The notes beneath the pieces are model-generated. The model was not told where the DNA came from, searched no databases, and was given only the letters and a program-made list of their open reading frames with translations. Positions 16,118-60,480 of a stretch of DNA of 64,000 nt are shown one piece after another (positions within the stretch are counted from its first letter, which is position 1; every line of letters begins with the position of its first letter). Source of the stretch: Nereocystis luetkeana. Its lineage: Eukaryota; Sar; Phaeophyceae; Laminariales; Laminariaceae. The stretch lies in assembly GCA_031213475.1 (NCBI GenBank), contig JARUPZ010000004.1, forward strand, positions 1,785,501 to 1,849,500. Reading direction: 5' to 3'. The position numbers and the translations under genes were made by a program.

Positions 16118-19100
16118 TCAGTAGCCCCACTTGTCGGATTTGTAGATGCTCATGCAGCCGACGCCTCCGCACGCCCTGGAGCGGTCTCCAGCGCACTCGT
16201 AGTCGCAGACGCCACCCTTCTTAGTAGGCTTGGAGCTACCGCAGTGGCATTCTGGAAACAAGATCAAATTTCGTCGGGGCCATCGTAGCGGGGGTGGGCT
16301 TGAGTCAAGGTAGGACACAAGTCGAAACGTTGCATTTTTTAATTGTCTGAACCAACCAGGCAGCCCGTGATAGTGGTTGCATGCGACATTGTTGAAAGTA
16401 AATATGGTACATAATTTTATACCGGAGCTCAACATGTTTCGGCCTGTTTTTGCACAGGTCAAAGCTGAAGGAGGGTCATGCCCTCCGTACACTGTAGTCA
16501 ACCATGTGCTGGCGTTTGCTGTTTGTCAGTGGGTACAAGTATCAGCGTGTCATCTTGTTCACCGTCAAGCAACCGTATTACACACTTCAACCAAGCTACT
16601 CGTCGAATTGGGCATGTGGCGATCTGAAAAGCAACTAGTGAGTACCTACTGAGGTACCTCAGACTCACCTGAACCGTATGCCGTAGCGAAGTACTGCCAG
16701 CCGGAAGAATTGCAGCTATCAGCGCACATCTGAGGAAACGGCGCGTCGGCAAGAGGTGCAGCTAAATCGATTAGTATCGTTGCCTTTGTCGTTGGTTGCA
16801 TTTTGCTTAGCTGAGCACCAGTACCCAGTGTTAGTGAATCGACCTAACGCTTGCGTGCACCGCGACGCAGCACCGGAGCTGTGCTATCACACTGGTCATC
16901 TGACTGACAGGCAAGTAATACCTCGGTTGCCCACCTGCGCCGTCATGTCGCTGGAACTAGACGTGGGGCCATTCATTGGCGTGTGATCCGAGTCGTCTAC
17001 GTAGCAGCCGAGGTACTTAGAGTGCTTCGCCTTTCCTTTCTTCAGGCGCTTGCCACGCTTGGGGCGCCTCTTGTTTTTCTTGGTCGGACTGGGAGTAGGT
17101 GCCGGGGTGGGAGCCGGGGTAGGAGCCGGAGTGGGAGCGGGACAGAAGTCGTTGCCGACCACCAAGCCAGTCAGAATGGACAGGTCGGGAGTGTTGCCCT
17201 GATCGTCCGTGTAGTCGGTGGATACGACGACGCTGCCACCGGGGACCTCGCTGCACACGTCGAGCAGGACATCGAACTCCGTCGGAGTGGACTCAAGGTC
17301 GGCCGCTGAAAATGTGACCGTGTTTCCGGAGATGGATCCCGACGAGGTAGAGTCGACCGGCACGCTGAACTCGATGGTCACCGTTGCGCCTGTCGATGGG
17401 CACGGTATGACGATGCCTCCGCTTGACGAGAGGATGCTTTCCAACGCCGCTGAGAATCGTGCATGGTGGAAAGGTGAGGAGGCGTAGAGTCTAACGGATG
17501 TTAGACCGTCTAATGTCTGTATCGTTTATTCAATGCTGGTGATGTTGTCACCGTACGGAGTTGATTACTTCCGGCGTTTTTTTTCTTTCAGAAGAACGAG
17601 GGTACGAGACATGTGTATCACCCCCCTGCGAATATAACGGAGTGTATGTGTCGTAGCGACAGCTGCTTAAGAAAGGGAAGTTGTGGCACAATCGAGACCA
17701 CTCGAGCTCCTTCGGATCGCCTGGGAGTCGTATGTTAAGGCCGAAAGAAAGGTGTACACGAGTAGCGGTGCCACAAAGTAGAGATATCTCAAACTGGGTT
17801 ATGTTCAAGCCAGGGCGGCATTGGCTAGAGCACACTTTTAAACGGACAAAACCTCGTCGAGTCGAGCGACGATTTCCCAAACCTGGTACATTAAACGCGC
17901 TTCGACCGGTGTAAGACGCAGAAAAACTCATAAATATATAATGGACGTAGCACCCAGACTACGAGGGGAGAGGCCTAGCGAATGCACACCAGTAAGAAGT
18001 AGCCATAAGTAGCTATTTCGTGCACTGCGTACATGAACTTATCTCCGACGAGTACGGTCGAAACCCATTTTAGCTCCGGCTTTCCAAAGTAAAACCACTT
18101 CAGAAGTCTCCGTCATTGGACCGGCTTTCACGCTTTCTTACGATAAGTGTGTCTGTTTTCGGCGTATAGTTTTTGAATAGCAGGGCTTCTTAATTCAAAA
18201 TCGTGAAATATCAACGGTGGTTTCCATGATTGTTCGTGATACACCTATTCAGACTACAGCCTTTGGCATGGTTCATCGTGCTGCGCCTTTAGGTCCTCTG
18301 AAAAAGCTCGGTTTTGGGTTCTAGCGGAGAGTTTCTTAAGCGTTAGGCCTCAGAACCGCATTTGTGCCCCCCTACAGCAGTATGCCACCTTACCATCGAG
18401 CAGGTCGAATTCTGCGACTTCGAAGACGTTGTCTGCGTCCCCTCCGATCGCGAGCAGTTCAGCGGCACCAGTTCCAGTTCCTTCAGAGGGAGAAAACATG
18501 GTACGTTCAAGGCACCGGAGAAAGTTTAAAACATATGAGGTGTAGCGGTCAGAGACATTTCATTCCGGTGTGCGCTCGTCACGCCAGCGTATGGTGGAGG
18601 CGAGGTGTTCACTGCTTCGCCAGAGGTTGATACCTGTGTGTCGTGTTCCTCACTAGGTACTTGAGCTTGCCCAATTGCCATGTGCACGGTTCAATGACAC
18701 CGGTAAATAGTGCTCGCCAGTGGGAGAAAGCGATCGCGACAACTCTGAATACTTGATCGACCGCTCTGTACGGCCTTGTGATGGCGTCCACTCACCTACG
18801 CCCACAGCAAACACGATTATGCCCTCAGCCCTCGCTGCGTTTGCTGCTGCTGTGGTGGCGGCGAGGCTGTTGCTTTGGCCGTCGGTGATCACGATCATGA
18901 ACGATGCGCTTGCAGGGTTAATGCCTAGCAGTCGGGTGCCTTCGTTAATACCGACGGACGTAACCGTGCTTTGCCCAGATTGGACGTCGGCATCGGAGAA
19001 GTCGTTAAAGTCTTGGGCGTTGTCGAACATATCGGACGAGACCAAAGAGCTCGAGTACTGCACATAGGATGCGGTTCCTCCATTGTCGAACAAGTTTCTA

Positions 19101-20156
19101 TCGGCAAAGGCGTTGACGGCATCCATAGCAAAGTCCTGCTCCAGCTCGAAATCGGGCGCGCTGATGCTGCCAGACCCATCGAGGACGACGGCGAGGTTCA
19201 CCTTTCAGGGTAGAAGCAAACGTGCATATTATGTTGCAATCAGTGGCCTGCTGGTTTTAGTAGGTGTACTGTAGAGCGATATTATATGTATATATATATA
19301 TTGGACCACCATGCTCTGTGAATCACAAGGAGGTTGACGACATGTATATCACCGGAGTTGTGAATAGCAACTACCGTAACAAACTACCAGGTACAGTAGT
19401 AGTAGGTCGTCCACGCTCTGTTCAAAAATTGTGTTCAAGGGTGATGATAAGCATGAATTGAAGGGTTTGTGAAAAAATGTACTATTACGGGGGACCATAG
19501 TTAACAGGACCTACGGTATACATAAAAACCTATATGTTTAACAATTTTTACTAACAATATTTGGTCCTGTTAACTATGGCCCCCCGTAATAGTGTGAAGG
19601 TCTGGAGTATTAACATTACGGAGGGACATGTAGTCATGACCAAATATGCGCAGTAGAAATATCCTACTACATAGTTAGGCTGGAAAGTAAAAGTGATGTT
19701 TAAAAAAAATAATAAAGAATAATATATATATACGGTCTTCGTGTATATGATGGGCCCTGATTGCTGATGCCCGCGGTCATAGTATATCAGTGTTGACAGT
19801 AGTAGCGTGGTGGTCGCCTCGTATTAATAGTATTGAATTGAGCATTTTGGAACATTAAATAATATACAAGAACAAAAAGTTGGTCCGATTAGAGCAGGAA
19901 TCGCTTCATGGACCGTAACGCGGGCTTGGCCTGTAACAACTGCTACTAGCCAGGCCAGAGCCTACACCGACCCACTCACCGTATTGGCCACGATCGACGT
20001 CTCTCCTTCTAGAGTGAACGTCAAGGTGGCATCATCGCACGGACACGACGAAAGCATCGTAGAGTTGATCTGAACGCATGATGCTGATTGGCCCATTACA
20101 TCGGCAACGGCCAGAACGCTCAGCGCACCCACCAGCTTAAGCTTGGGCATCGCCAT
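16118..20156 (-). CDS. Gene A: secreted vWA - PT-linker - WSC protein, six exons, 459 aa
   Basis: Coding exons on the minus strand: 20156-19980, 19201-18796, 18480-18394, 17449-16935, 16729-16669, 16251-16118 (TGA stop). All junctions are GT-AG, phases 0,1,1,0,1, and the joined frame stays open. Residues 1-26 look like a signal peptide; a Cys-rich stretch with an N-S-T sequon follows. A vWA domain (about 60-223) has a complete metal site: DGSGS, the Thr of NEGTRLL and the Asp of VITDG. Next come a beta-rich region (224-326, three Cys), five PAPT-type units, a Lys/Arg-rich stretch and a WSC domain (YLGCYVDD to [10 protein letters not shown]) spread over exons 4-6. vWA domains bind protein ligands through a metal; WSC domains are usually carbohydrate-binding. 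Role inferred: extracellular-matrix or wall adhesion protein. An upstream in-frame TTG is not used; the ATG at 20156 aligns with gene C. vWA about 90% identical to gene B. Confidence 0.88.
16252..16668 (-). other. Intron 5 of gene A
   Basis: 417 nt between the two C-terminal WSC exons, donor AG|GTGAGTC and acceptor TTTCCAG. No repeat or RNA gene seen. Open frames across it are not supported because they ignore the splice sites shared with B and C. Confidence 0.7.
17450..18393 (-). other. Intron 3 of gene A
   Basis: 944 nt, donor GATG|GTAAGG, acceptor TTCTCAG. Nothing recognisable inside; frames on either strand have no family resemblance. Confidence 0.65.
19202..19979 (-). other. Intron 1 of gene A, carrying a MITE
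   Basis: 778 nt, donor ACG|GTGAGTGG. The acceptor is AAAG just before GTGAAC. It contains a complete foldback MITE (19483-19592) and, at 19613-19650, a sequence resembling half of a second one (TTACGGAGGGACATG). Confidence 0.65.
19483..19592 (-). mobile_element. Foldback MITE copy 1 (in gene A intron 1)
   Basis: Terminal palindromic arms TATTACGGGGGACCATAG and CTATGGCCCCCCGTAATA, with the AGGACC/GGTCC inner extension. Bounded by TA on both sides. Opposite orientation to the other copies, judged by its asymmetric core (TTTTTACTAACAATATTTGG). Confidence 0.85.
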
Positions 20157-20814
20157 CGCAATGAACAACAGCCGGTTGCTCGCCTACGCGAGCAATTGTT
20201 CGTTTCGGGGGGAAATTAGCGATGGTCGGATATAGTTTAGCATAGTTTGCTATGGTTGTATGTGTGCGAGCTTCGTAAAAAAAACTAACAGTATACACGT
20301 GACGTGCAAATCTGCGCACCACCAGCATTACCGTATGCACATGCGGCACATACATGTCGGTTACGATTACTACCTATAGACCTGCACATGATTCACCTGT
20401 GTATGGTTCCTCTTGTATAATGTCGTGACTGGCCACCCCATAAGGTGATCCAAACTTTCCCTTGGCCCCTAACAATACTTTGATCGAAACGATGCTTCTA
20501 TTTGACTAAAGGTAAGATGCTTGAGTCTAAGCAGAAGCACACACTTCAGATCGGGTTCGCAATCCCTTTACTTGCAGTAGTAGTGGTAACCACTGCTGCC
20601 TTCAAGACGGCAACATACCTCACAGGTTCGAGCTTGGTAAACACGATAGTGATCTCTCTCTATATATATGTCTCTTCTGGAGGCCGTCTTCTCTCGGCAG
20701 TACCCCTTGACATATCTACCCACAGTAATAGAGTGTAAGGATGCACACGTACCTGGTGCATGATACCGAGAATCAAGGCTAGACCAGCCTATTCATCAAA
20801 ACAGCTCAGATCTC

Positions 20815-21055
20815 TCAATATTTCCCTTTGGCTCACCTGGGGGTAGTGGGCTGAGGGGAAGCTGGCTAGGGGTGGCAGGGGAGAAGACGGAAGTGAGAGA
20901 GTAGGGACGTGATGAGGTTCCAACAAAAAGAGCTTACTGAGCTCGTCAACGTAAAATCAATTCGCCAAACGGTCTTTGGAGAAACTTCCAAGAAGCGGAA
21001 AAGCCGGACGTTGGAGGATATGGGCGTACCGTGGGCCGGCGGAGAGATCGAAGAG
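20815..21055 (-). promoter_or_regulatory. Conserved upstream block of gene A (promoter plus probable non-coding exon 1)
   Basis: Read on the minus strand it holds, in order, CACGGTACGCCCATATCC (about 21036-21019), CTTCTTGGAAG, a pyrimidine-rich CCCTACTCTCTCACTT (20906-20891), a Pro-codon-like C-rich stretch and a donor CCCAG|GTGAGCC after 20837. Equivalent blocks precede B, C and D. A matching acceptor (GCGTAG) lies at 20185-20184, 27 nt above the ATG, so a roughly 650-nt 5' UTR intron is plausible. Transcription start not determined. Confidence 0.55.
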
Positions 21056-24000: not shown

Positions 24001-24492
24001 CCGCGGGGACAAATCCCTTCGCATTTATTCTTACAATATCAATTCATATTAAGAGCACAGCGAAACCATATTTTTACTCACAAATATCTATCAAATACCA
24101 TAGCATCAAGGACGGCAACGCGGTCTGGCCTAGATTCGAACTGACTAACAACCTTTCTTCATTGATTGGTCATGCGCCCCATTGAACCACTTTCTTGTGT
24201 CGTTAAATTGTCAGAGGTTATCGTAAAAAAAGCCAAGGAATGGCGATGTTGTGCCGGTAAAAGTATCTACGAGATGTACAAGGCGTGGGGTATTCACCCC
24301 GGAAATTAAGGACGAGACTACATAAATACAGTAGTAGTTCAAGGTGGCCATGTACGTACGTGGTCTATTAATATGTGCGAAAGGCCTGTGTACAACTCAA
24401 TCCATAGAATATTGTTCTCGAGTTCAAACATTGAAGGTATCTCTTTATTGTCGCCAACATATGGAACCTTGTGAACTGACCATTAACGGGGG
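21056..24492. other. Head-to-head spacer between genes A and B, left part
   Basis: No gene recognised. A 120-codon minus frame at 21657-21295 contains LATASNLECNCRKELQDGQV but no domain. The spacer is rich in short GGTACC/ACCTGGTA palindromes around 23280-23650. Confidence 0.45.
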
Positions 24493-26766: not shown

Positions 26767-29700
26767 ATGACGATGATCAAGACTTGGCTGGCGTATGCAC
26801 TGAGTGCGCTCGCCGCGGCCGTCGTGAGGGGTCAAGAATCATGCGTTCAGGTCAACATGACGGAGCTCTCGTCATGTCCGTGTGTCGATGCTACTTTGAC
26901 GTTTACTCTAGAAGGGCAGACGTCGGTAGCGGCCAATACGGTGAGTGAGCGGGTGTAGGCTTTTAAGCTTGATTGAGCAGTGGTACTTGCCGGCGACGCC
27001 CACCTACTCCTTCATAGATATATTCCTGACCAACCAGAACAACTTGGGTTCGGATGACGATGTACAAAAAAAACACAAATCTAATGGGTGACGGTCGAGA
27101 ATTCCAAGGTTGGCTGTGTCCTATACTGTACGTACAGCACCGTACCGGGGTGGTTCTCTGGGTGTTACCCGTACCGGGAACGCCTACTTGTTTTTTACGA
27201 CATGCGTACCCCTAACTGGAGGTTCTGTAGGTTATGTCAGACTATATGTTGCACTATCTATAATACCCGGTGTACGGGTATGATTTTGTAAAATAAGCGT
27301 TCGCCCAGTTACTGTACGTATTCGTAGTAAAGCCCAGTAGTGCCCGGGTATGTTACGCATTATGACGTCAAGCCTCACAGTAACACACACGTAACACAAA
27401 AAATACAGATAGAGATATAGACAACCAAGAAAAATGAAACCCCTCTCACACAAATAGGCAGTCTGCAGAAGAACCTGGTTTACTGCGAATCAGTATTCGT
27501 ACGTACGTATGTTTGGTTGGTGGGACTCGACAATCTGCGACTTGGTTGTGCCGTACCCGATAAAAAATGAAATTGCTGTAGTTTGAAATTTCAACTATAG
27601 CGTTCGGTTGCCTCTTCTTGTGGCTCTTGGTATTTTATTTATACAAATAAATCTACAAATTTTGATACCAGGTATTTGTTTTGTTGTGATCGGCACCGCC
27701 TTCTTTTTTGTTTTCCGTGGCTGCTTCGCTATCATCGCGGTTGAAGGGCTCTTCGCGAGCCTGCGAAATAAAATTAGTATAATTGATACGGAGTACCCTT
27801 GCAAGGCTTCGTTCTTGTACAACAAGAGCAATGCCTTCGTTCCGGCGTTAAACCAGTGACCGCGGAAGTCGTTTCCAGGATTTTGAACGGGTTCTTACCG
27901 TGGCAACTGTGTGGAAAGCATCAACAACAACAGAATTCTGAAGCAAACACAACAAAAAATGAGCGACAATGGAATTTATGGAGCATGTAATGTGTTTTAG
28001 AATGATGGGGTGCTCAGTTCTTAGAGTATACCAACCCCATTACACCAAAAATTGTTTTCTGTATTTTTTCACCAGTTAATTTGTCGATTGTTCGCCCCAT
28101 TGAGGCGTGCATTAACCTGGTTTCTACCCGCACCTGGAATTCATCTGAGCTGTACATCACCCAGACTCGCACCGGCGTTTCCTAACCCTAACCTTGACCC
28201 TGGGAAAGTTTGGGGTGACTCTTCGATCAAAGCGTGCTATTTGTTCGGGGTGTGTAGGTTTTCGTTTTAGATTGGTCTACACATTCGAATGTTTCTGTAC
28301 TCAACGGATTCGCTACAAAACCTTGCAGCTACTATGTACTATGTCATAGCGAGCAAACTGGCTACAAGCGTCCTGCTGTAGTTGTTGCGGTATACTCCCT
28401 GAAGGTGTTGCAGTAGGGTCAACAAAGGTCCAGCGCCAGACATGGTGCTCGGATTCGTGCTAGTCAGGTGACCCACCGTTCTACGACATAATTAATTATC
28501 AGAACAGTACCACAGCAGTAGTAGTACACAACATATATATGAACAGATCGAGGGTGACTTACTCCATCTACTAGTCAACTACAGTAGTGTTGCGATCCAC
28601 CACCGCGGTGATCCTCACGTCACGGATGTCCGTGTGATCCACTTGGTATGGCGACCCAGTCTATTCAAATGCATATCGATCGAAGGTACACCTACCAAAA
28701 CTGGCAGCCCAATGATTGCAACATGACCGTTTGCTTCTACCCTGGAAGGTGAACCTCGCCGTCGTCCTCGATGGGTCCGGCAGCATCAATGCGGCCGATT
28801 TCGAGCTGGAGCAGGACTTCGCTATGGATGCCGTCAACGCCTTTGCTGACAGAAACTTGTTCGAAAACGGGGGAACAGCATCCTACGTGCAGTTCTCAAG
28901 CTCTTTGATCTCGTCCGGCATGTTCGACAACGCCCAAGACTTTAACGACTTCTCCGATTCCGACGTCCAATCTGGGCTAGGCACGACCACGTCCATCGGT
29001 ATTAACGAAGGCACCCGGTTGCTAGGCATTAACCCTGCAAGCGCCTCGTTCATGATCGTGATCACCGACGGCCAAAGCAGCAGCCTCGCCGCCACCACAG
29101 CAGCAGCAGACGCAGCAAGGGCTGAGGGCATAATCGTGTTCGCGGTAGGAGTAGGTGAGTGTACGGTATCACAAGGCCGCACATAGGTGTTGATCAAGTA
29201 TATATATATATATATACGTGGTTGTCGCGATCGCTTTTCTTCACCGGCCCGTACTAAATCTCGATTTCGTTAACCATGCACTCGGCAACTGTGCAAGTCA
29301 ATGAATCAACTTGACCAGCGCATATCACACAAGAATCGAAATCTTGAAAAACAATCCCAAGGGAACCGCTTTCCTCGTTTCATATCCCTGCTATAATTCA
29401 TATCGAGCCTACATAGAGCAGACCTACAATTGTTCCTGCACCACTGGCAGAAGCAGCCACTGATTTCCGAAATTTCTTTGATGCCTTCAATACTTTCCTT
29501 TTACCCCCGTCTGCAGGCAGTGGAATTGGCGCTGCTGAACTTCTCGCGATCGGAGGTGACGCTGTCAATGTCTTCCAAGTCGCAGAATTCGACCTGCTCG
29601 ACGGTAAGCCGACTTTTCAAACAAACGGTGACCAGCCGCATCGTTCTTCAAATTCCGGACAAGAATCTCCAGTAATTTTGATTGTACGTCTTGGATGAAA

Positions 29701-32666
29701 GATGCCGTACTATATAGGCGCGTATTCTATGACACAACTGCAGCACAAGCTACAGTATGGAGTGGCCACTTCCTACTACTACTGTGCATGTTTTATGTCC
29801 CTTCACTCGCAGGTGTGGGTACCTGGCATACAGACGTACGTGTTAAACGATACCTGATGATCAGCGATGTCAGGAGACGCGTCAGGCCACGAAACAATGT
29901 GCGCTGTCAAGGGTGTAGGGTCGAGTGTTCCACATCAAACCCTAGCAGTTCGGTCGCAGTCAAGGCATGCCAAGGCGGAATTACTGTCTGTCAAGGGGTG
30001 AAAGTGCTGTCTCCTGACATATTTGCTGATGACAGACTCTGCTGGATGGTGTACCTGTATGAACGCGCTTGTTTGGCCGCTCCGGGAAAAACGTGTAAAC
30101 ATAATGCGCATGGGTAGCTTCTGCGACTGTTCTTAGCCGCGGGCTGAACTAGCTTTCGGCCGCGATCGTTGTGGGGTTTTGATGCCGTACCGTTACGGTA
30201 CGTACGCGCTGCACTTGGTGCCAGTTTAAGCCGCAGATTCTCAGGCTGTTCGGGTAGGTCCGGGTTGCGCTGATGCTCATAGGTGAAGCTGCCTGGCTGG
30301 AGCTTAAGAGGTAGACCGGGATGATAGGCGTTTAGAACGCCGAAGGTCTATTCTATAATGGCAAACATTGAAAGGGTCGAAGTAGACACGAGATCAAGAT
30401 ATTACCACACTCCCTTGGCGATACGGCTAGATACAGCATACGGGATGGCTGTACCGAGCCACCCACAGCTACGTCGACGACCAACCGAATGCCCCCTGTT
30501 CGTAGCGTAACTCGATCATCCGGACGACGCGCGGTACCGAGCAGCAACTACATTATTCTACCGACCTGGCAATTGTACCACGATCTTCGTACGTGTACAT
30601 ATTGCATAGTGTAGATTGGAATGTTGTTGTACTGCAGTGCCTGCTGTACAAGTACTCAAGCATCACCTCAATCATCCCTCCTTGCCTTTGTCTGTAAACG
30701 TTGGCCTCGACGGTTGTCCGTCCGCTGAAGAATGACCTCTACGCTCTCTGGTTCGTCGTATGTTTGGGCCCATGTTTCGTCGTACAGTCGCTACTACTGT
30801 AGACTCGTCATCAGCCCTAAGCTACTGTTTGTAACCGATGCATGAAATATTAGGTCCAATCTGCACGTCGTGTCACGATGTATTCCCAGTCATGTGGAGT
30901 CAGCGTATCTGGCTACCGTATACCTGGCACGGGATACATCGTTTACTCGCCCAAGATCTGTATTTATCGAGGCATCCAGTCATGAGCATTAGCGGGGAGT
31001 GCAGTGTAGCGTGGGAGTCAACACCCACCGCATGGCTACGGAACATTACTCCACACTATGCAATTTGTGCATAGCTACAACTACCTGCACATGTATCCGC
31101 GTTTCCCAATCGCTACGATGAGAGCATGCATGCAAGAAGGGACAAAATCTGGCAACTCCCCATTAGGATAAAGTACTCTGTACTTGAGTATTCTTACATG
31201 CAGATGAAAACGATCCCGTGGTCATAGTCCAGATTTTCCCCTCCTCCCCATGCCTGCACCATTCCTACCATTCACCATATTCAGCGGCCTTGGAAAGCAT
31301 CCTCTCGTCAAGCGGAGGCATAGTCATACCTTGCCCGTCAACCGGCGCCACGGTGACCATCGAGTTCAGCGTACTGGTCGACTCTACCTCCTCCGGGTCC
31401 ATTTCAGGAAGCACCGTCACTTTTTCCGCGGCTGACCTTGAGTCCACCCCCACGGAGTTCGATGTCCTGCTAGACGTCTGCGGCGAGGTCCCCGGTGGCA
31501 GCGTGGTTGTATCTGCGGACTACACCGACGACCAGGGCAACACTCCCGACCTGTCCGCTCTGACCGGCTTGGTGGTCGGCAACGACTTCTGTCCCGCTCC
31601 TACCCCGGCGCCCACCCCGGCGCCCACTTCGGCGCCCACCCTGGCGCCAACCCCGGCTCCCACTCCAGCCCCAACACAGGCCCCCACCCCAGCTCCCACC
31701 CTAGCTCCCACCCCAGCTCCCACCCCAGCCCCCACACTGTCGCCCACCCCAGCACCTACTCCCAGCCCGACCAAGAAGAACAAGAGGCGCCCCAAGCGTG
31801 GCAAGCGCCTGAAGAAAGGAAAGGCAAAGCACTCCACGTACCTCGGTTGCTACGTAGACGACTCGCAGCACACACCTATGAATGGTCCCATGTCTAGTTC
31901 CGGCGACATGACGACGCAGGTGAGAAATCAAAGTACACTTTGACTGTCAGTCAGTGTGGCCGCACAGCGTTGGTGCTGCGTCACGGTGAACGTGAGCGTG
32001 AGACCAATCCAAAACAACGGACACAGATGTGGCGAAGAAAGAGCAGACAACGACAGGTGTAACACCGCTGTGATTCAACTGCACCTCTTGCCTACGCCAT
32101 TTTTCCTCAGATGTGCGCCGACAGCTGCAATTCATCGGGCTGGGAGTACTTCGCCACGGCATACGGTTCAGGTGCTTTATGTAGTTTGGAACCGCTGCCC
32201 TCCAGTCGATCGTATATTGGACTACACGAGTGGATGAGAAATACCGTCGGAACATACATGATAAAACTACGATAAGCTGCACTAGTCTGTGCTTAGTTGA
32301 AAATTGTGAAGGGTGCCCTCGGTCCTCCTTGGAATGCGACAAGTGATAAAGGGGTCAGAGTAGGACGGACGTTGCTGAAACAAATATCTCCGCGCGAGTC
32401 ATTAGCAAGAAGAATGTATTTATTAGGAGATCGACCGACTCTGTTCAGACGCACGTCTATCTGCTCCGTTGCTGCTTGACCCAAACACACCTCTGCTACG
32501 ATGGCCCCGATGGTACTTGATCTCGTTTCCAGAATGCCACTGCGGTAGCTCCGAGCCTACTAAGAAGGGCGGCGTGTGCGACTACAAGTGCGCTGGGAAA
32601 CGTTCCAGGGCGTGCGGAGGAGTCGGCTGCATGAGCATCTACAGATACGACAAATACAGGGGCTAG
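26767..32666 (+). CDS. Gene B: secreted vWA - long PT-linker - WSC protein, six exons, 498 aa
   Basis: Exons 26767-26940, 28749-29154, 29517-29603, 31285-31919, 32111-32171, 32533-32666 (TAG stop); total 1497 nt, in frame throughout. The start gives [20 protein letters not shown], a good signal peptide; the ATG at 26773 is an alternative. vWA about residues 59-222 with MIDAS D66-x-S68-x-S70, Thr in NEGTRLL and Asp in VITDG; exon 3 supplies the last strand and helix ([20 protein letters not shown]). Beta-rich domain 223-325, then fifteen 4-residue PT units (326-385), a basic stretch, and WSC from about 407. The WSC Cys pattern is canonical plus one extra Cys in [10 protein letters not shown]. 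Exon 4 is 120 nt longer than in A and C, which equals ten extra PT units relative to A. Introns 4 and the 3' flank (CACACAACAGTAAC) still align with gene A, so A and B are a fairly recent inverted duplication. Confidence 0.9.
26941..28748 (+). other. Intron 1 of gene B
   Basis: 1808 nt. It holds a short CCTAACCCTAACC telomere-like tract at 28181-28195 and several GGTACC/CCCGGGTA-type short palindromes (27130-27350). No supported gene. Confidence 0.65.
29604..31284 (+). other. Intron 3 of gene B
   Basis: 1681 nt, donor ACG|GTAAGCC, acceptor ATTCAG. It has a 140-codon open frame at 29695-30117 with no recognisable domain; I treat it as non-coding. The preceding intron 2 holds a (TA)n run at 29199-29217. 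Confidence 0.6.
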
Positions 32667-34817: not shown

Positions 34818-34926
34818 TATTACGGGGGGCCATAGTTAATGGGACTAAATATTGTTAGTAAAAATGGTTAAATATATAGTTTTTTATGTGTACCGTAGGT
34901 CCTATTAACTATGGTCCCCTGTAATA
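34818..34926 (+). mobile_element. Foldback MITE copy 3
   Basis: TATTACGGGGGGCCATAG ... CTATGGTCCCCTGTAATA with core ATTGTTAGTAAAAATGG. TA on both flanks. Confidence 0.85.
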
Positions 34927-40285: not shown

Positions 40286-40944
40286 TGTACAAAAAAAAAA
40301 ACTCGGGGACCCCCTTTGTCGGGTCCGACACTTGAACTATCCAAACGTCTTCCCAGAGCCCTTGCCAAAGTTTCCAAATAAATGACGAATCAAATGGAGG
40401 AGGAAAAAACACACTGTTGAAGTAAAATTAAAAAAGACAAACATATATTTTAAAAACTTGTGCAAAATTCAGGATATCTCAATGACTTCTTGAGGAATTA
40501 TTGCCAAAGGTTTCACCGCCAATCGTAGAGGACCTGAAACCGGCTGGCCCAGAAAACCATATGCCAGGTGCTTCTTAGATAATTGACGAACGTTTTGGTC
40601 CTACAGAAGCGCCTGGCCAGTGCTTACCTTTTGGGGGCCGATGGATGGACCGGACACGATTTCGCCTCTGCCACCATCCCTAGTTCCTCAACGCAATCAG
40701 ATGGCGATGTATGTTGCCGCCTTCCACTGTGTGGGGGTGAATATTACACTAAACACGCGACATTCGAGTAAATAACCCAGGCGGCGCGTGTTCATAATTG
40801 GCGACGGAGACGCTTACCGGGGTTCAGCTTGAACCAAGTCGTACGAAAGGACGTTCCTTCGGTTGAACGGGTGTCTATGCAGCGCGAGGGGGACTTCGCT
40901 CGTAAGGCAGCCAAGCCAGTGCCTACACCTTCCTACTCACTCAC
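40286..40944. other. No supported gene
   Basis: Lies between the tandem array and the exon 1 remnant of pseudogene D (in the position of its intron 1). Nothing recognised. Confidence 0.4.
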
Positions 40945-41649
40945 CGTACTGCCTGATACCGCCGTCTCTTTGTCTAAGGTGAACGTCGAGGTAATATCGT
41001 CGCGCAGGGGCAGTATAGACTATTGTGCCTCGGAGATGCAAACTATAGTGTGTAAGTAAGGTCTTGAAGCGTAAAAGTACCTCAAAGTAAAGGACACGGT
41101 ATTAATAACTCAAGTCAACACGTCACTTCATTCGCCAACGGATTCCCAGATATTTAATCCATGCGGTACCTACCAGCAAATGAGCATGCACCTGTCTTCT
41201 TATAGTTTGTCGTAGCGGGCTACCCCCCTCGTCATTGAGACATCTTCGACCCTCAACCATACTCCAACGAAAGAGGTGAGTTTGATTTGATCAAACCCAT
41301 GTCGATTGAGCCTATATCAAGAACGAACCAACCTACCCGACTCTGCGATCGTTTCATCAGCATACTATAATAATAGTCGAAACCACAAATTTTCACCAGA
41401 CCGCAGCAGAACCAACATCCTGCTTACGGCTTGATCTACAATTTGTTGAGGTACGTAGAAACAAGATATCTATATACTTTGTAGAGATCACGTAGCTGTA
41501 GTGGTTGCTTACAGCCGAACAACCGTGTTCGAAGCTGGACACATCGCACAACGGTTTACTACGAATACGCTTGGTGTATGGTATAGAGTCTTCCCAGGAT
41601 CGTCGATACTCTCGATCAACAAGACATACCTCTTAGTCATATATTTATA

Positions 41650-48242: not shown

Positions 48243-50262
48243 AGAATCTTAAATCGCGTTGACGATCTGACTGCGTCGTGACGTTTCCACGTTGCCATAA
48301 ATAAATGACCACTGGGCTGAAATGATACTATGTTTCTGTGTTCGCTGCGTGTGACACGTATGAAACGCTCCTCCACAGCTCTTCTTCCGATCGATGTCGA
48401 ATAATAACTCATGGAATACCTGATCCAGAATAATTCACGAATTCCTGGCCCAGCGAGCGACCGCTGTCTAGGTGCAAGCCACGGGCCCTGTATGTTCGCG
48501 TGTCCTACCAGTCTGCCTGCACCGTTCCGTGCGGTATCCACCTCGACCTGGTACTCCCACAAGCGCGAGTAACCAAACAGCGCCCGCTGCTGCTGTCGAA
48601 GTGACTACGTACTACTGATACGTACCCAGCCAAAGGATATGAACCATTACGCCTAATAATTCGGTCTACAACAACAACAACAACAGTTAAACAACAAACT
48701 ACAGATAATTATCATATCGGTTCCCGATCTGTAATATTATCTTCCTATGTTTCTGTTTTTTTGCCGTTAGAGCTGAAATAGCTGCAACGTGTTGCTACTA
48801 CAATAATACCGTTTGCCTCTATTACTAGGATACGTACATATTTTACTAGCGTAACGGTTGGTCCTGCCATTGCTTTAATCATAAAATGTGTCTGTTGTTC
48901 TGGACTCTGGGGTCCATAACTGGTAACTGGTGTTGAACTTTAACGGGAGTGGCGGAGTAGCAATATACGAAGCTTTTACCGTTGTTCCGATTCCGGAGAG
49001 ACCCCCAAGCAGTTTACGATGGTTATCAAATGGGGGCATTAACACGCCAAGGAATTAATAATACGCTGAAAGGTGCGACACACCCTTCACCAGGACCCAC
49101 CCCGCTCAGGGCCACATAGATAGGCTTGCACCCCCTGAGACCAGGGACAATTTTAGGACGGAAACGATCGACGGAAAAAATCGACTTTCCGTCAAAATCC
49201 ATAGTCCACCACATCCAGCACGCCTTGGTTGTGACCACGGGGGGATGGTGGAAGATCACACAAATCATGCCCGGTATGGTGCTGGTACCTAGTATGGTAA
49301 CGGTACCTTACCTGTCTTCCTTTTGGCCTAATATGGCCTGATATCGATACCTCGCACCAGTCCTCGTCGTTGTTTTCATTGTTAACCCCTACATTGATAT
49401 TGAAATATGGTGCTTGTTTTGTGTGTTTACTATTAATATATGTTTCGTTATGCTACTAACATGTATATGTCATGCTGCTTACCGAAACCATTCGACCTGA
49501 TGATTGAATGAGTATCACTACAGTACAGTACTGCGTTACATATTACGTTGCACCTTTTTTGTGTGCGTGCCAGCCAACACAGGATTATTACTGGGTAAAG
49601 CCTTTATCGTGCATGTACATTTTCTGCGAAAACATCTAGGAATTCCGCTGATAATATAACGTAGCTTTACTCGCTAGAGGCTGTGCCGACACTGTTGCCC
49701 AGCGTAACTTTGTACACTACATCTACATTTAGTTTGCGAAAGACCTCTGAACAATAGAGTAACATACTGTTCACGATACATTCGGCATGTACTTTGACCC
49801 CATAACGTGTGTCACGACAACATACTATCGTCCAGCGAAAATCGAAACTTTACATCACGCGCAATGGGCTGCCGATTCAACACACACTGCCGCCAATATT
49901 GATACTCCACAACACGCTAACTTTTGGTTAGACGATCGACGAACGATATCATCACGTGCTAACACGATGTCATCACATCACCTACAAATAAATGCCATCA
50001 CGTTGTAACGTAATGTTGCGATCTTATTTCGTTGATGCCTATCGTTAACATCAAATAAATGTAAAGGAAGTTACGTTGTCCAAGGTGTGAAAAAATCATC
50101 AAACCTCGTCCTCGCAAGGTTGGTGTTATGTTTGATCGTGCGTTCTACGGGGCGTGTAGGTTCCAGAGTAACCTACAGTTACGTTCTAGAGCGGTCTACA
50201 AAATGGGTCGGTTATATTCCAGTATGTCATCAGAGATTGAAGCTAGGCACCCGATGAATGAA
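48243..50262. other. No supported gene
   Basis: Unique sequence with a small (AAC)n run at 48669-48690. Part of a 170-codon minus frame (48562-48050) runs into the TIR element and the MITE, so it is not a gene. Confidence 0.45.
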
Positions 50263-50605
50263 TGTTATAAGGATTACCTTGAGCTGGGTAATCGATCGAT
50301 CTTTTACCCCTATAGCTCAGTAGGTAACACCTTCACATTTGACGACGTCCAGGTCACGGGTTCGAACCTCACTTCGAACGTTTCTTTTACAGAAACGCTT
50401 GCGCGTGCACACCAAAAAAACACATCTCCCTGGTTCCCCAGGTAATGAAACGAAGCGGGTAGGTCAGCGTACGGACGTATGTATACGGTTCCGACGCCCC
50501 AAAGATCCCGCCGTTCTGAGGGGGGGAGAGTGTTATAAGGATTACCTTGGGCTGGGTAATCGATCGATCTTTTACCCCTATAGCTCAGTAGGTAACACCT
50601 TCACA
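50263..50605 (+). mobile_element. Miniature LTR element (TRIM/SMART type), looks whole
   Basis: Two 75-bp direct terminal repeats, 50263-50337 and 50531-50605, almost identical, each starting TGTTATAAGG and ending TTCACA (TG...CA). A purine tract (GAGGGGGGGAGAG) lies directly before the second repeat, as expected for a plus-strand primer. Flanking bases TGAA occur on both sides (50259-50262 and 50606-50609), a 4-bp target duplication. The ~190-bp interior has no coding capacity. Near-identical ends suggest a young insertion. The parent autonomous element is not in the window. Confidence 0.72.
50307..50400 (+). other. tRNA-like Pol III box motifs inside the TRIM
   Basis: TATAGCTCAGTAGGTAACAC resembles an A box and, 40-odd bases on, GGTTCGAACC a B box. 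The D-arm and T-arm do not pair properly, so this is not a functional tRNA gene. It may be chance, a tRNA-derived part, or linked to the primer-binding site. Confidence 0.35.
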
Positions 50606-50609
50606 TGAA

Positions 50610-52504: not shown

Positions 52505-52735
52505 CCGCCGATCCCTCCGTACGCGTATACCCCCTAACGTCCGACTCTTAAGAGTGCCACACTTACGCTTATTATGGGGCATTTCTTAGTAAGTAGGCAG
52601 CATGATAAATTGTTTTTCCGTGAACAAGCTAAGCGAGCGCATCTAGCAGGAAACAACCCACGCCCCTACTCTCTCACTTCCCTACCTTCTTCTCTGCCCC
52701 CCGTGGCCAGCCGCCCTTCATTTTCCAGCCAGGTA
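52505..52735 (+). promoter_or_regulatory. Conserved upstream block of gene C (promoter plus probable non-coding exon 1)
   Basis: Contains CCGTACGCGTATACCCCC with AACGTCCGACT following (about 52517-52547, matching A closely), CGCCCCTACTCTCTCACTT (52661-52679), and a donor AGCCAG|GTAAGCCC after 52732. A CTGCAG acceptor ends at 53428, 12 nt above the ATG at 53441. Spacing to the start codon matches A and B. Confidence 0.55.
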
Positions 52736-53440
52736 AGCCCATGGGAAAAATGAGTGATCTGTTGCATAGTAGGTCCGACGTTCTGCTCATGATACGAACC
52801 GGGTACCATACACCTTGGGCATTTATCGATGAACTCATTGCTGTGTGTAGGGCTTGGGACGTACGTTGAAAAGTGAGCTCTGGAGCTGCGCGAGCGGCTC
52901 TACCGAAGACGTATATATCTGCACATATTTAGCCCAACAATTCGTGGATCGAGCTGCAATCAATAGGGTTTGCTGTTGTCTGTTGACGAGTAACGGTCGT
53001 CTCGGCTGTGGTGTCTAAAGGAAAGGACTGTAGAGGCGGGTCCAGGTTCTGTGTGAATCGCCCTCGCTGAAAGACAAACAGATGCACCGCTGTTGTGGCA
53101 GTCCGCTCGAGGGTCAAGGAAAACTCGATACCAGGAGAAGTCCTTGTAGCCCGTCACGAAACGTCAAAACACCGAAAGGGCACAGGTAACGCGTAGTCCA
53201 CTAAAAAACACGTCATACGTACCATATACGAGGGTCCACATTGTCATGTAAAAAAGGAGCATGTAAGAGAGGTGCATAATTACCACAATGATATTGATGG
53301 TGCACAGATTATGCGAGTTGAATTTCTGCTCGTGCACAGAGCTCACCGAAACGGAGAGTCAACTACTTGCTTTTATCGAGTACATAAAAACCGTTGGTTT
53401 CCTTTGATGTCGAACAGGACAACTGCAGCTAGGAATCGCA

Positions 53441-56400
53441 ATGGTGGTGTCTCAGATCAAGCTGGTGGGTATGCTGAGCGTGCTCACTGTCACCAGTGTG
53501 ATGGTCCAATCATCATGTGTTCAGCTCAACGCGACGGAGCTCTCATCGTGCCCTTGCGACGGTGCCACCTTGACCTTCACTCTAGAAGGAAAGACGACTC
53601 TAGCGGCCCATACGGTGAGAGAGTTGGTGTATACGTGTGCTCGGCCAGCAGCAACTACTTACAGGCGAGGTCCATCGTACTCTATAAACAGACACATGTT
53701 CAACCCGAACAAAGGTTTTGCGTAAGAAGAGAGGGTTCAAGCTGAACGCCCGAGATCGTATAGGTCACGAATACAAGTCGCCTGCGAAAACCCTCGAATG
53801 TCGCGTATTCGGTGTGATACTCACCCCCGTGAAAGTGGCACACGATGGAATGGGCATTTTGTCACGCGAAGGAAGCAGCCTGATAGAACTGGCACCGCAT
53901 GCTGCTTTGTGTCCCGGCGAACAACACATCTTGAAAAAAATAAAAATTGCCAGGCGTGCCATTTGGAAAAAAACGACTGATTTCTCATACTTGTTCGTAC
54001 AGGCAGGCCGGCTCCAGTTGGTACTTTTAACTGCTGCTTGGTGCTATTACCTGCAGTAGTATATATATACTACTGAGAATGCTCCTATTATTACGGGGGA
54101 CCATAGTGAATAGGACCAAATAGTTTGAGTAAAAAAAGGTAAATATATACTGGTAGAGTTTTTTGTAGACCATAGGTCCTATAAACTCTAGGTCCCCCGT
54201 CATACTTTTATTACTCTCAATATTAATGTTGCTTCTATCATTACTAGTAAAAGTAGTACTACGATTAATGATCGTTTTTTTGTGCTTCTGGAGAATTTCA
54301 TGAATAGTGACAGAACGCCCCCGTATCTTGATACGCATCTCCAATTACTTCCAAACCTTGGAAACTCCCCGATAATATAAATGACCGTAACACCTCTTGT
54401 CTACTGGTACAGTTCTAGTCGTACTATTGCTATTATAGACGTATTAAAGACTCGAGAACATGAGATACAGTGGGTCTAAATGCTTCGCCCAGGCTTGGAT
54501 ATACAGTAGTGTTTTTTTTTATATATTTTGCGATACAGAACTCGATAAATGCCTTTGGTGAACGATCACCCTATCGAACCGAAATTTTACCGTTTTGAGC
54601 AACACGCGGCTTAGGCGTACGGTAGTTCAAATTGTTGAAGCCAAACGACTGGTCGGAAGCATGCACATGAGAGCATTCTCCGCCAACACGCCTGAAGGCG
54701 AAATCTTCGAGGCTCTGACGGAGAATGCTGAGGATACTGGCTGGGTACGACCGCTGGCTGGGGCAGGAGGTCTCCACGAGTCCAACATATACTTCGATGG
54801 AGGTGCCGCAGAATATTACAGTATTTCATGGAAACTTAAAACATCGACAGGGTGCCGTGTGGACCACCACAGATTCCACGTGAAGTTTAAATACCTACCT
54901 GGTGCATGCAGTGCTGGCCCCTCTGCAATGCCTGTATGCGCCATTCTACATGACCGGAGCAATGGCACCAGCGCTACGCCGTACACAGCCATGCACGTGC
55001 TGACTAGTTAATCCCATCTGTGACAGTCGATTCCACATACACTATTATTGCGCCCAGCCGGCACTACTCAACCGGCACTTTCGCGGGGCCATTGTTGTAC
55101 CTGGTATGCACCTGCTACTGCGGTACCCAGTGCACATAGGTATCGGTACACGCAACGGCAGTAGTTAACTTATGAATAAAAAACAGGGCCTGTCCCGGGG
55201 TTGACCGCGCGGATCGAGGAATGGTGGTGATTGTGGAGTAAACAATGACAAAGCGCCATACGAGTTACAAACTCAAGGCGAATCGAATGAGGGTGGTATT
55301 TTTCCATTTTCCGGAGTGGAAAGGGCGGCAGGACGACGAGAGTTTTACCGTAGGACTTCGAAAAGTCTTACAATAGCGACGCAGGCACTAAAGCGTCCCC
55401 TGGTTACCGCGTTTCCAGTCGGTGATATATCAAGATGTTTTATCGGAACGGAAAAACGCATCGCCAGTTTTAAAACGCTGCGTTTGCAACTTCGGCTCGT
55501 TTGTGAGTACCAGAAAGCGACGGTGACTCGAAAGAAGTCCGTCACAGCAGCTTGTGTTTCCCTCGAGATTGATGTCCTACCTGTTCGTAAGAGACACCCA
55601 CATACATCTGAACTTAGAGGTGCTGAAGTGGTCGAAATAGGTCGGGATTTGTGGTGCCCAGTATGAGGCAAAACCCAACACCCGACTGAACGTTTGCACC
55701 TCACTTGCGGATGTCTACAGCTCCTCACAGGGTACGACAGACCGCTAAATAGAGGGATGCTCTTGGTGGGAGGCGTGAGGGTGACGGGAGCACCAGAAGG
55801 CAGTTATAGTCACCCAGAAGCGACTGACGAGGTGTTTTCGTGTACTCGAAGTTGGAAGCGAGTAACACCAAAAGCTCCCTAAAACAGTAATTTTTCATTT
55901 TGCGCAAGGAAGGGGGCATAGCACAACGGTTACATCACCGATAAATCTATGGTTTTCACTATAATAATGTTTCTGTTACCCAAGGTGGATGGCGTATCTC
56001 GTAGAGAGTCGTCGTCGAGAACAGGGCGGGAGGGAAAACTTCGTTATCATGATCGATAGTAATTTCTTGGGCCCAAACAACGGCAAACAAGGGCTAAAAG
56101 ATGTTTTAATTTCGCATAAACTATTCCACATCCACGAACACGGAACTTGGACGCAAAATCGCGTGATATTTTTCCACGTTTATGAATATGCTCCCGAAAC
56201 GCCTACGCGCGGGTACTTGATGATGCATTCCTGAAGGTAACGGCGTCCCTTTAAGGACAAACCTTGATTCCAAAATACGAACCAGGTATGATGCTACTAT
56301 GCTATTTAGTATTATTCCTACTGTCACGGTGACCTACCCCCGTTCCCGCGTTGTTTAAATTCCTGGGGGGCGAGGGAGACGGTTTTGACGGGATCTACGA

Positions 56401-59400
56401 TCAAGCCATTCTATGAAAGTCAAGTTTGAATAAATTCGAACACGCGTCCGAAATGACGCCAATTGCGAAGGCGCTACCTAAAGAGCAATAGGGGCAAAAC
56501 CTGTACTAGCCATGGGGGAATACTCACAACACTCTTCCCCCTTTCTGAACGACGGGATCTTTGGGTCGACGACTACTCCTGGAACAATATCAGTACAACA
56601 ACAGTACCATTTGTTTCGCTGCTACTATACTACCACGAACATTGCTGTACTACTGTACTATTGCGTACACTACTAGATATATGTATGCTCATCTACTGCA
56701 AATATCACAACGACAGTATTGCAGAGTAAACATACCCTTGCAGAGCCCACACTCGTGGGATACGTACATAAACGAAACAACTTTTTTACATACTACAACA
56801 GCCATTTAATAGAGATGCCCCCGTTTGCTCCTCCTCTCGAAGGTGAACCTGGTCCTCGTTCTTGACGGATCAAGCAGCGTCCTGCCGAGTGATTTTGCTC
56901 TAGAGCAAGGCTTTGCTATGGACGCCGTCGCTGCCTTTGCCGACAGAAACTTGTTCGACAACGGAGGCATGGCATCGTACGTGCAGTACGCAAAACATCT
57001 GGCTTCCTCCGCTTCGTTTGACTCTCCCCAAGACTTTAACGAGTTTGTCGGTACCGACATGCAAGCTCGAGGAGGCACGACCACGTCTATCGGTATTAAG
57101 GAAGGCACCCGGCTCCTTGGCGATAATCCTGCTAGCGCGTCGTTTATGATTGTGATCACCGACGGTAAAAGCGGCGTCATCCCCGCCACCAAAAGTGCAG
57201 CAGACGCAGCCAGGGCTGAAGGAACAACCGTGTTTGCTGTGGGAGTAGGTGGGTCGGCATCACATGGCAGTAGTAGTAGCTGTCGATTTAGGCAGAGTGC
57301 AGAATTGTCGCGATCATCGCGTTTCACCGACGCGTACAACTTGACGAAGCCGTTATACCCTGCGCCTAGAATATGTACAAGTGGAGATCTGTTTCGACCC
57401 AGGACGAATCGAAGAAGGATGAAAACCAACAAAAGGAGCAGTGAACGGGGATACAACAGAGGTAGCGCCATTTCGGTCAAACAAACTTTTGACTGAATGT
57501 GTTCCGTGCAACTGTAAAACTACCCGACACCGTTGCGATTCCATTTATTTGTGTTATCCACTCCAGCTCAACAAAGCCGACGTGAGGGAATTTCAAACGC
57601 GACGCACTACACAGATCGCGCTGAAGGCTAGACGACTGCGACCGGACGGCCTACAAGAGACGGCCCCTTTAGAATGCCGCCTGAACTCGCGCATACACAT
57701 CGGATATTCGGAAGAAAGCAACAATGAAACAATCATTATTACACACATTACATACTTGGGGCATGGGTTACTTCGGGTAGGGTAGGCGTACATTGTGTCG
57801 CTTCTTGGATGATCTATCCGTTTTAAAAATCTTGAAGGGAGTAGGAGCCTGCACTCTTAGGATCTACCCCTACCGTACGTCAGTGAAGACATATTTGCGG
57901 TTCTTAGTTCTCTGTGTTAGCGTACCCACGGCCTAGAGGTTGTGGTGTCAGCCGTAACAGACGTTATGCTGACACCGTGAACGCTTGAAATGCACGCCTT
58001 TGACCGCCCGTCGCAGGCAGCGAGACTGACGCTGTTGAACTTTTGGCAATCGGAGGCGACCAAGCCAACGTCTTCGAAGTCGAAGAGTTTGACCTGCTCA
58101 ATGGTAAGTCCCGGGCAAAAAAAGGCAAAACTGCAGTATCAGCATCGTTTTTCAAAGTCGGTGAAATGCATGTTGTCAATTACACTTGTGGAAGACCAGA
58201 TATATACTATATTAATTTACTACTAATAAGGCAACTTCACGCTACGGTCCGCACTTTAGGTCTCTCTCTTCGTGCGTAGGGTGTCATTGACACTGGTATT
58301 GGGCACGCACCTGGTACATGGTGCTGGATAAACACACGTGTTTCATTCTTCCTACAATATTCCGCACCCGTACACACGCGCTTGGTATATTAGTTGGAGA
58401 CAAAATAAGACTTTACTCAGCGTGCGCATATACTCTAGACTTTCACTTCTTTGTGAGATCCGGCCACACGTGTTGTTGAGACCTGATGCCGCGATTGTAC
58501 GGTACGAACTTCCTGCACTTAGTGTGATTTTTAGCCACGATTTCTTAGATGTTTCTCTCCCACAGCTTACGACGTGGAATTGCTTTCATTCGGTGCTAAC
58601 TCTAGTCACGACGTACCCGAATGAAACGCCTTTTCCGAAACAACACCCACGAAATTGCAGCCTTGGAATCCTCGACTAGTCTAGCTTTGTGTCCTACGAA
58701 CGCAAGTACTCGCGCCTCGAAACAGTTTTGGCTCGACGAACGGCTGCTGACTCTTGCTTGTAACCAGTGCATGTGCTCGATCTATACTCACGTGGTCGTC
58801 TCAGAAGTGGATAAGCAGCCATGGTACGATACTGCAGGAGTGTCACGTGTGCGTCCTGACCTGCTGCAGGCCTACACAGGATTGTCGCCACTTGCGACTG
58901 TTCAAAAGCTACTAGTACTGCTGTGCACTTAGTTTGTTTTCGCTGCAGCGTATGGTGAAATACCATACGCCGGTTTAAGAATTTGTTCAAGTAAAATTGC
59001 AACCGCCAATCACCAACCTTGGGTGGCGATAAGGTAATGAGGTAACATTGCCCCCAGTATAAAAGACAATACCATATATATGCGCACGACCGAAACTCTG
59101 CTCCTCATTCTGTTCCTGTACAACGTATGTACTGCACGATAATCAGCGGCCTTGGACAGCATCCTCTCCTCGAACGGAGGCATCGTCATACCCTGCGAAT
59201 CAACGGGAGCCACGGTCACGATTGAGTTCGGCGTGACTGTTGACTCGGCCACATTCGGAACCATCAAGAAAAAGACGGTCACGTTTTCCGTGGCTGATCT
59301 TGAGTCTACCCTCACGGACTTCGAAGTTATGCTTGACGTGTGCAACGAAGTCCCGGGTGGCAGCATTATCGTATCTGCGGACTATGAAGATGACCAGGAA

Positions 59401-60480
59401 AACACTCCCGACCTGTCGCTTCTGGCCAATATGGTCGTCGGCAATGACCTATGTGCCGCTCCTACCCCGGCTCCAATCAAAGTGCCCCCCCCGACGCCTA
59501 CTGCAAAGCCGACCAGGAAACTCAAGGACGCACCCTCGCGTGGCGAGAGCTTCGAGGTTGGAAAGGCAACGGATGCCGAGTACCTTGGCTGCTACGTACC
59601 CGTGGATAAATCGCCACCCATGAATGGTCCCGTGACCACTTGGAACGAAATGACGGCGCAGGTGAGAAACAAATGTAGCCTTGGGCTATCAGTCCATGCC
59701 ACGTAGTGCTCCATCCCGGAGCAAGTGAGCGCCGAACCAATAATATAATACCGGGTTCTGATGTTCCAATGGCAATGCATCCAGCGACGGGCGCATCTGT
59801 AATTTGTTTTTCCGTTGTCTCTCTTTCTCGCTCATCTGCTACTCAGGCGTGCGCCGACAGCTGTTTTTGTCTGGGATGGGAGTACTTCGCAACGGCTAAC
59901 GGTTCTGGTAATGTTTGTGGACGATGGTTGCTCTTCTGTGTGCCGCATACCCCCACTTTAGGATATAGCTTGACTTGATGACTGTACTACTCTAAACCTA
60001 GCTTGTACCATAGTCTCCGCGAATAGAAGTAATATACTCCAAATATTGTTCGACGGTACTAACGCGCGCACGTCTGACTATAGTCGCGAATAAGCTTGGT
60101 GCAGAGTACTTGCGACGTTGTTTATTATCATAACGAACGTACGTCGCATCAGAGTACAGGGGGCAAGCTCCCCAGTTGGCTGAAGTTACCTCACTTACAG
60201 TAGCTGCAGGTGTGTCTGTCTTCTCCGTTGCAAATCCACTGAAACAAAAATACTTCCGCGATGGCTCCGTCTCAACGTGACCTCATCTCCAGAATGCCAC
60301 TGCGGTAGTTCCGAGCCTACCAAGAAAAAGAAGAAGGGCGTGTGCGACTACCAGTGCGCCGGAGACGGTACCACTGAGTGCGGAGGAGCCGGCAGCATCA
60401 GCGTCTACAAAAGCAACAAGGACGACGACGACGACGATGATTTGAGCGACTGCGAACAACATGGCAGACTGCGCAAGTAA
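53441..60480 (+). CDS. Gene C: secreted vWA - short linker - WSC protein with acidic tail, six exons, 476 aa
   Basis: Exons 53441-53614, 56843-57248, 58017-58103, 59147-59661, 59847-59907, 60293-60480 (TAA stop); 1431 nt, open throughout, same phases as genes A and B. The signal peptide is MVVSQIKLVGMLSVLTVTSV, followed by a Cys-rich stretch with an N-A-T sequon. The vWA domain keeps DGSSS, the Thr of KEGTRLL and the Asp of VITDG, so metal binding should be preserved, but it is clearly more diverged than A and B. The linker is short and irregular (APTPAPIKVPPPTPTAKPT) with a less regular basic stretch. The WSC domain (YLGCYVPVD, ACADSC, ECHCGS, VCDYQCAG, CGGAGSISVY) lacks the extra Cys of A and B. 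The tail continues with seven Asp from a GAC/GAT run, absent in the paralogs. Intron 1 is 3.2 kb and holds two element insertions. Likely a matrix protein with a changed charge profile; function inferred. Confidence 0.88.
54089..54204 (+). mobile_element. Foldback MITE copy 6 (in gene C intron 1)
   Basis: TATTACGGGGGACCATAG ... CTAGGTCCCCCGTCATA. More diverged than copies 1-5: the core reads TTTGAGTAAAAAAAGG and the right arm has an inserted base and a changed end. Confidence 0.8.
54262..54385. mobile_element. 5'-truncated copy of the second foldback element
   Basis: Matches the right half of 35217-35476: GAATTTCATGAATAGTGACA, CGCATCTCCAATTACTTCCA, and the end CTCCCCGATAATATAAATGA. The left terminal repeat is absent. 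Confidence 0.6.
57249..59146 (+). other. Introns 2 and 3 of gene C
   Basis: Intron 2 is 57249-58016 and intron 3 is 58104-59146, flanking the 87-nt exon 58017-58103. The vWA reading frame runs open for about 250 nt past the true donor at 57248, which makes exon 2 look longer than it is. The donor position is fixed by exact length agreement (406 nt) with A and B. Confidence 0.6.

Follow-up and report, generated by a model that had tools for sequence, protein, structure and literature searches.

Among solved structures the proteins described here come closest to mussel proximal thread matrix protein 1 (PDB 4cn8, E 7.9e-18), which is likewise an extracellular matrix protein with a metal-site vWA domain, but belongs to an animal, carries a pair of vWA domains in the chain that matched and showed no WSC match. 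Further PDB matches were obtained with integrin alpha-E (E 2.6e-7), collagen VI, von Willebrand factor and the WSC domain of Kremen. With the integrin alpha I-domain and integrin beta our proteins have in common a vWA domain of the metal-site pattern, whereas they lack the propeller, the EGF modules and the tail of integrins and, as judged by hydropathy, the transmembrane segment. Chimeric arabinogalactan-protein cores of brown algae, which Herve reportedly described in 2016 (cited in PMC8307928), join a stretch rich in AP, TP and SP to folded domains, and this is also the arrangement seen here, where glycosylation is putative.

With the yeast Wsc1-type wall sensors, as described in the available text of PMC9024836, the algal proteins share an extracellular WSC domain and a flexible linker, but they carry no transmembrane or cytoplasmic part (hydropathy) and have a vWA domain added. 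The fungal WSC lectins of the SiWsc3 type are likewise soluble secreted matrix proteins, with three WSC domains where ours have one WSC and an added vWA domain (available portions of PMC9024836 and PMC9252488), and such lectins bind beta-1,3-glucan (same portion of PMC9024836). In brown algae, WSC proteins are counted among the wall proteins in the accessible part of PMC8307928. A literature search, mostly of papers outside subscription, did not find vWA and WSC combined in brown algae, and we regard the pair as a new domain combination within known kinds of protein, namely secreted vWA matrix proteins and WSC wall proteins, whose function here we infer from its parts.

Three genes and a decayed copy in the window

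The window, meaning the whole stretch of 64,000 nucleotides that was analysed, lies at C4:1785501-1849500 of the Nereocystis luetkeana assembly (465 Mb, 1987 contigs; C4 is contig JARUPZ010000004.1). The original prediction had placed here three genes, A, B and C, each encoding a signal peptide, a vWA domain with a full MIDAS, a Pro/Thr linker, a basic stretch and a WSC domain, together with a decayed fourth copy, D. Coordinates, strands and exon lengths of the three genes proved to be as claimed, and all three splice at GT-AG introns into open frames with no internal stop. Gene A (16118..20156, minus strand, 459 aa) has coding exons 20156-19980, 19201-18796, 18480-18394, 17449-16935, 16729-16669 and 16251-16118; gene B (26767..32666, plus strand, 498 aa) has 26767-26940, 28749-29154, 29517-29603, 31285-31919, 32111-32171 and 32533-32666; and gene C (53441..60480, plus strand, 476 aa) has 53441-53614, 56843-57248, 58017-58103, 59147-59661, 59847-59907 and 60293-60480. 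These exons measure 177/406/87/515/61/134 nt in A, 174/406/87/635/61/134 nt (including the stop) in B and 174/406/87/515/61/188 nt in C.

Profile searches placed both domains above the curated Pfam cut-offs in all three proteins, and no other Pfam family exceeded its cut-off in them. For VWA (PF00092, cut-off 23.8 bits) the scores were 62.9 bits in A (E 5.7e-17, residues 61-223), 56.8 in B (E 4.3e-15, residues 60-222) and 72.4 in C (E 7e-20, residues 60-222), while for WSC (PF01822, cut-off 27.8 bits), where the profile was covered over its full length (1-82), they were 57.6 in A (E 1.5e-15, residues 369-445), 54.6 in B (E 1.3e-14, residues 408-484) and 48.2 in C (E 1.3e-12, residues 368-446). 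The claimed Pro/Thr linker was also found in each of the three; in B it is encoded by a coding tandem repeat of period 12/36 (31602..31768, plus strand), which follows a beta-type domain in exon 4 (31287..31595, plus strand) for which no Pfam or PDB relative was found. Pairwise BLAST identity was 78% for A and B, 67% for A and C and 60% for B and C, the first of these being reduced because the linker of B is longer; A and B are close sisters, with 87-88% identity over the alignment and tree support of 81/79.

The fourth copy was correctly recognised as decayed. A remnant of its vWA exon lies on the minus strand in two pieces with a broken frame (38575-38504 and 38405-38223), which were detected by tblastn without composition correction (E 1.8e-12, the two pieces combined) and by DNA comparison with A (74% over 86 nt, E 5.9e-10). 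A remnant of exon 1 with its donor region (40909..41003, minus strand) matches A 19948-20038 (73% over 95 nt, E 7e-9), so that the pieces stand in the correct order on the minus strand with their frames broken. Since a stricter tblastn with 12 whole proteins against 33-48 kb of the window did not detect D at E 0.01, its identification rests on the DNA matches and the uncorrected tblastn. Neither a beta-domain remnant nor a WSC remnant of D was found.

The window also holds a MITE-like dispersed repeat of ~110 nt with self-complementary halves, at 19483, 24768, 34818, 38979, 47959 and 54089, which lies in intron 1 of A and of C and between genes. At least 40 near-complete copies of it occur over many contigs (40 of 1106 candidates scored), and this wide dispersal rules it out as part of the gene family. 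A direct repeat of 79 nt (50260-50338 and 50528-50606) is 97% identical between its copies, which are 268 nt apart. The window gave no Rfam match and no tRNA, and 10 of its 103 open frames of at least 100 aa, compared with Pfam, had no match at E 0.01. A viral origin was considered and rejected, as comparison of the A/B/C alignment with viral contigs yielded 70 pattern stretches but nothing related at E 1e-3.

A single array of vWA exons on contig C4

When the whole genome was searched with protein B, family exons were found on C4 between 1.690 and 2.249 Mb and on small contigs, with 14 family vWA exons lying within one 0.56-Mb stretch of C4. The vWA exon of the first array member, g01, gave 15 matches as query, 14 on C4 and one on contig C1272, where a stretch 100% identical to g14 is the sole other family vWA copy found outside the array. 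The Pfam VWA profile had 16 matches in the genome, comprising the 14 array copies, the C1272 copy and a partial hit on C16. These counts are lower bounds, since the searches were run exon by exon and vWA genes with small exons may escape them. The partial PF00092 match (L059, C16:10015357-10015533) reads THG where TDG is expected, with H for the metal-site D, and belongs to a different gene. The related VWA_2 profile had two matches in the genome, both on C21.

The order along C4 is g01 (plus), g02 (minus), A (minus), B (plus), the remnant D (minus), C (plus) and then g06-g14, so that the nine rightmost members all share the plus direction. This bears on the arrangement that had been predicted: A, B, C and the remnant D are indeed present, but as an incomplete view of a 14-copy array, and the two head-to-head pairs are not the unit of the cluster, since pairing is a local arrangement next to the uniform run g06-g14. 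In particular, D is too far decayed to be placed, and its pairing with C was not borne out.

The predicted local amplification, on the other hand, was borne out by this single-locus array and its recent near-identical blocks. The blocks g06+g07 and g08+g09 repeat at a distance of 104-105 kb with ~99% DNA identity including introns (g06/g08 99.07%, g07/g09 98.98%), and an intergenic probe recurs at 99% across them. These two-gene blocks make up the newest unit of amplification, which is larger than the head-to-head pairs. The pair g10+g11 repeats at ~90-93 kb, with g10 ~98-99% like g06/g08 and g11 ~93% like g07, and the intergenic probe matched this unit at 78% over its first two thirds only. 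A dispersed tandem-like repeat lies between g07 and g08.

Two members at the left end fall outside the set of open six-exon genes described below. In g02 the last exon shifts frame, and the third metal-site loop reads TGG, with the final metal-site D lost. The most distant member of the array, g01 (C4:1690001-1701500; L038, L051), has exons 1 and 2 together with a beta-domain exon in which a Pro-rich stretch is followed by a stop, and no WSC was found up to C4 position 1701500; with a vWA and a beta domain and no WSC found, it is perhaps an older form of the family.

Elsewhere on C4, another WSC cluster was seen at 824363-829017, where four WSC matches follow one another. The EsV-1-7 domain, a brown-algal expansion, had at least 150 matches in the genome and none in 14 control genomes.

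Conservation and variation among twelve open copies

Twelve copies (A, B, C and g06-g14, leaving aside g01, g02 and D) model as open six-exon genes. Exon 2, which encodes the vWA domain, measures 406 nt and exon 3 measures 87 nt in all 12, and exon 5 measures 61 nt in 11 of them and 55 nt in g13, while exon 1 ranges over 171-177 nt, exon 4 over 500-710 nt and exon 6 over 128-188 nt. GT-AG borders were present at 60/60 introns, partly by construction, since outside A, B and C each splice site was moved to the closest in-frame GT or AG, at most 15 nt from where the homology ended, and in g13 two exons (3 and 5) were placed by eye. For this reason stronger evidence comes from the uniform exon lengths and the low dN/dS. 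Over 28 pairs of 8 representatives, with the near-identical g08, g09, g10 and g11 left out, median dN/dS was 0.35 for the whole protein, 0.35 for the N-terminus, 0.30 for vWA, 0.26 for the beta domain and 0.47 for WSC, which is the loosest of the domains; the highest values for a single pair were 0.42 (whole) and 0.87 (WSC). These low ratios mean that the frames of the array have been kept as proteins by purifying selection and are not pseudogenes. With 12 open paralogs built to one exon plan and a median of 0.35, the vWA-linker-WSC gene is confirmed as more than a chance arrangement.

The claimed full MIDAS was also confirmed beyond the window. All five metal-site positions (DxSxS...T...D), which we assigned by what we take to be the integrin MIDAS pattern, are invariant in 12/12 open models; they are D67, S69, S71, T138 and D166 in A (exon 2, 18796..19201, minus strand) and D66, S68, S70, T137 and D165 in B. 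Equally invariant (12/12) are three cysteines on either side of the vWA, which itself is free of cysteine, suggesting that the N-terminal stretch may be tied to the beta domain with the vWA between them. Around the metal site, adjacent vWA residues differ about twice as often as those in the remaining vWA (0.48 vs 0.23), a contrast reached by 2 of 164 circular shifts, one of which is the unshifted case. Here dN was 0.40 against 0.16 in the rest of the vWA at an equal dS of 0.67, giving a rim omega of 0.60. This rim was hand-picked after the variable columns had been inspected. In any protein, loops are more variable than cores, and with omega below 1 the rim can be explained equally well by relaxed constraint and by selection for new partners, so we treat its variation as a lead only.

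The beta domain had no PDB sequence match at E 1, and against Pfam it matched five families, each in 1-2 of 16 members, the best being Big_3_5 at E 0.0035 in one member; these matches were too weak to name it. Related beta domains were found at four places on C34 (L054-L057, 5.617-5.658 Mb) and one on C13 (L058, 2.496 Mb), where they join a Cys-rich stretch like YDNGGKxIVCDPTCLDGVSDPTHCNCE and no family vWA. These genes form a second family sharing the beta domain, which, given its different Cys-rich neighbour there and the lack of the family vWA, is a shuffled module. AlphaFold gave a mean pLDDT of 38.1 for the beta domain and 37.6 for the vWA exon, each from a three-row alignment; since a plain vWA scored equally low at this depth, the low value is uninformative on the fold, including an insertion of the vWA into a beta-sandwich (hybrid) domain as in integrin beta.

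The linker had been called arabinogalactan-like, a label which holds for an AP/TP/SP-rich backbone and is based on such dipeptides alone: AP, SP, TP and VP dipeptides number 3 to 24 per linker in 11 of the 12 models, the pattern having missed g13, whose linker is visibly PT-rich. The basic stretch that had been claimed was found in A (net charge +14 before WSC) and in B (+13), but C has a net charge of 0 over the 22 residues before WSC. In the other copies the charge is near zero in g06-g11, as in C, and it is +4 in g12, +6 in g13 and -2 in g14; a strongly basic stretch is confined to A, B and the broken g02. The long last exon of C with its acidic tail is common to g06, g08 and g10, all ending in DCEQHGRLRK, and is therefore not the product of a lost stop.

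A hydrophobic start of the secreted type, as predicted, was present in 12/12 open models in a hydropathy scan. The same scan found no strongly hydrophobic C-terminal segment, the best 15-residue mean being at most 1.13 against 1.67-2.24 at the N terminus. The chain stops at or shortly after the WSC domain and, on hydropathy, has neither a transmembrane segment nor a cytoplasmic tail.

A candidate wall linker and its alternatives

We favour, with somewhat better than even confidence, the reading of these genes as one expanding array that encodes a family of secreted, non-membrane wall linkers, with WSC on glycan and vWA on a partner protein. Such bridging is what the domains most sensibly suggest, and the likeness to a mussel thread matrix protein and the occurrence of WSC proteins in brown-algal walls would fit a soluble wall linker. 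The signal peptide, predicted from hydrophobicity, would export the chain, and the C-terminal WSC would hold it to a glycan of the wall or matrix, probably aided by the Pro/Thr-rich linker, strongly basic in some copies, which would also serve as a spacer. At the other end the vWA, with its complete metal site, would grip a partner protein via an acidic residue of the partner, in the manner of the vWA domains found in animal matrix proteins. The three cysteines on each side may join the N-terminal stretch to the beta domain as a single module from which the vWA loops out. Because the linkers of the copies vary in length and charge, and their WSC domains and metal-site loops vary too, the array would then supply linker proteins that work alike but bind different partners.

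Part of the copy number could instead come from the assembly, if two haplotypes had been laid end to end and the repeated blocks were an artefact. The ~99% likeness of g06 to g08, of g07 to g09 and of the intergenic probe would fit such an error, as would the small contigs with 100% identical copies of g14 exons, but g11 is just ~93% like g07, and A, B, C, g12, g13 and g14 average 67% identity with the representatives, so that at least nine open genes stay distinct; we consider this explanation unlikely. The 14-copy array with its recent blocks might also represent a diversifying recognition repertoire, in which secreted proteins that recognise patterns or parasites wait in the wall and vary among tandem copies in the vWA rim and WSC. 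These two regions do change faster than the remainder, and red-algal C-lectins with vWA are classed as potentially microbe-sensing in the available text of PMC8307928. However, the dN/dS median stays below 0.5 in every domain and the rim value below 1. Nonsynonymous differences among the newest copies amount to 0 to 0.6% of sites, so that these copies add more to dosage than to diversity, and such a repertoire seems to us rather unlikely.

Adhesion or recognition between gametes or spores, by sex- or stage-specific surface proteins that bind each other or a substrate, would be suited by vWA together with WSC and by a nearest solved relative from a mussel attachment thread, and one WSC-domain gene, not known as a member of this family, is up 5.36-fold in the Saccharina japonica sorus (available text of PMC11333212); we nevertheless judge this role quite improbable. 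The proteins could finally be integrin-beta-like wall receptors, as claimed for Ectocarpus integrin-like proteins, because their Cys-rich stretch, metal-site vWA and beta domain are ordered as in an integrin beta head. The Ectocarpus protein CBJ33612.1 (348 residues) is possibly a relative; the available text of PMC3192720 reports a match between it and integrin beta-3 in which the MIDAS segment is excellent. That reading is weakened by the missing membrane segment (hydropathy), with WSC in the place of EGF modules and tail, and we hold it to be very improbable.

Brown algae are multicellular independently of animals and plants. A bolder extension of the wall-linker reading, which we offer as tentative and on balance doubtful, is that brown algae have their own integrin-style wall adhesion, in which a metal-site vWA is fused to WSC, run in this species from a single and still amplifying locus that holds nearly all its PF00092 vWA exons, with loops tuned copy by copy to different partners. 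If true, this would be an integrin-style adhesion built by brown algae themselves. The vWA-WSC family provides concrete and testable candidates for joining proteins to the alginate and fucan wall, the single array offers one locus to delete or silence, and its recent blocks would make it possible to follow changes in the dosage and diversity of wall proteins.
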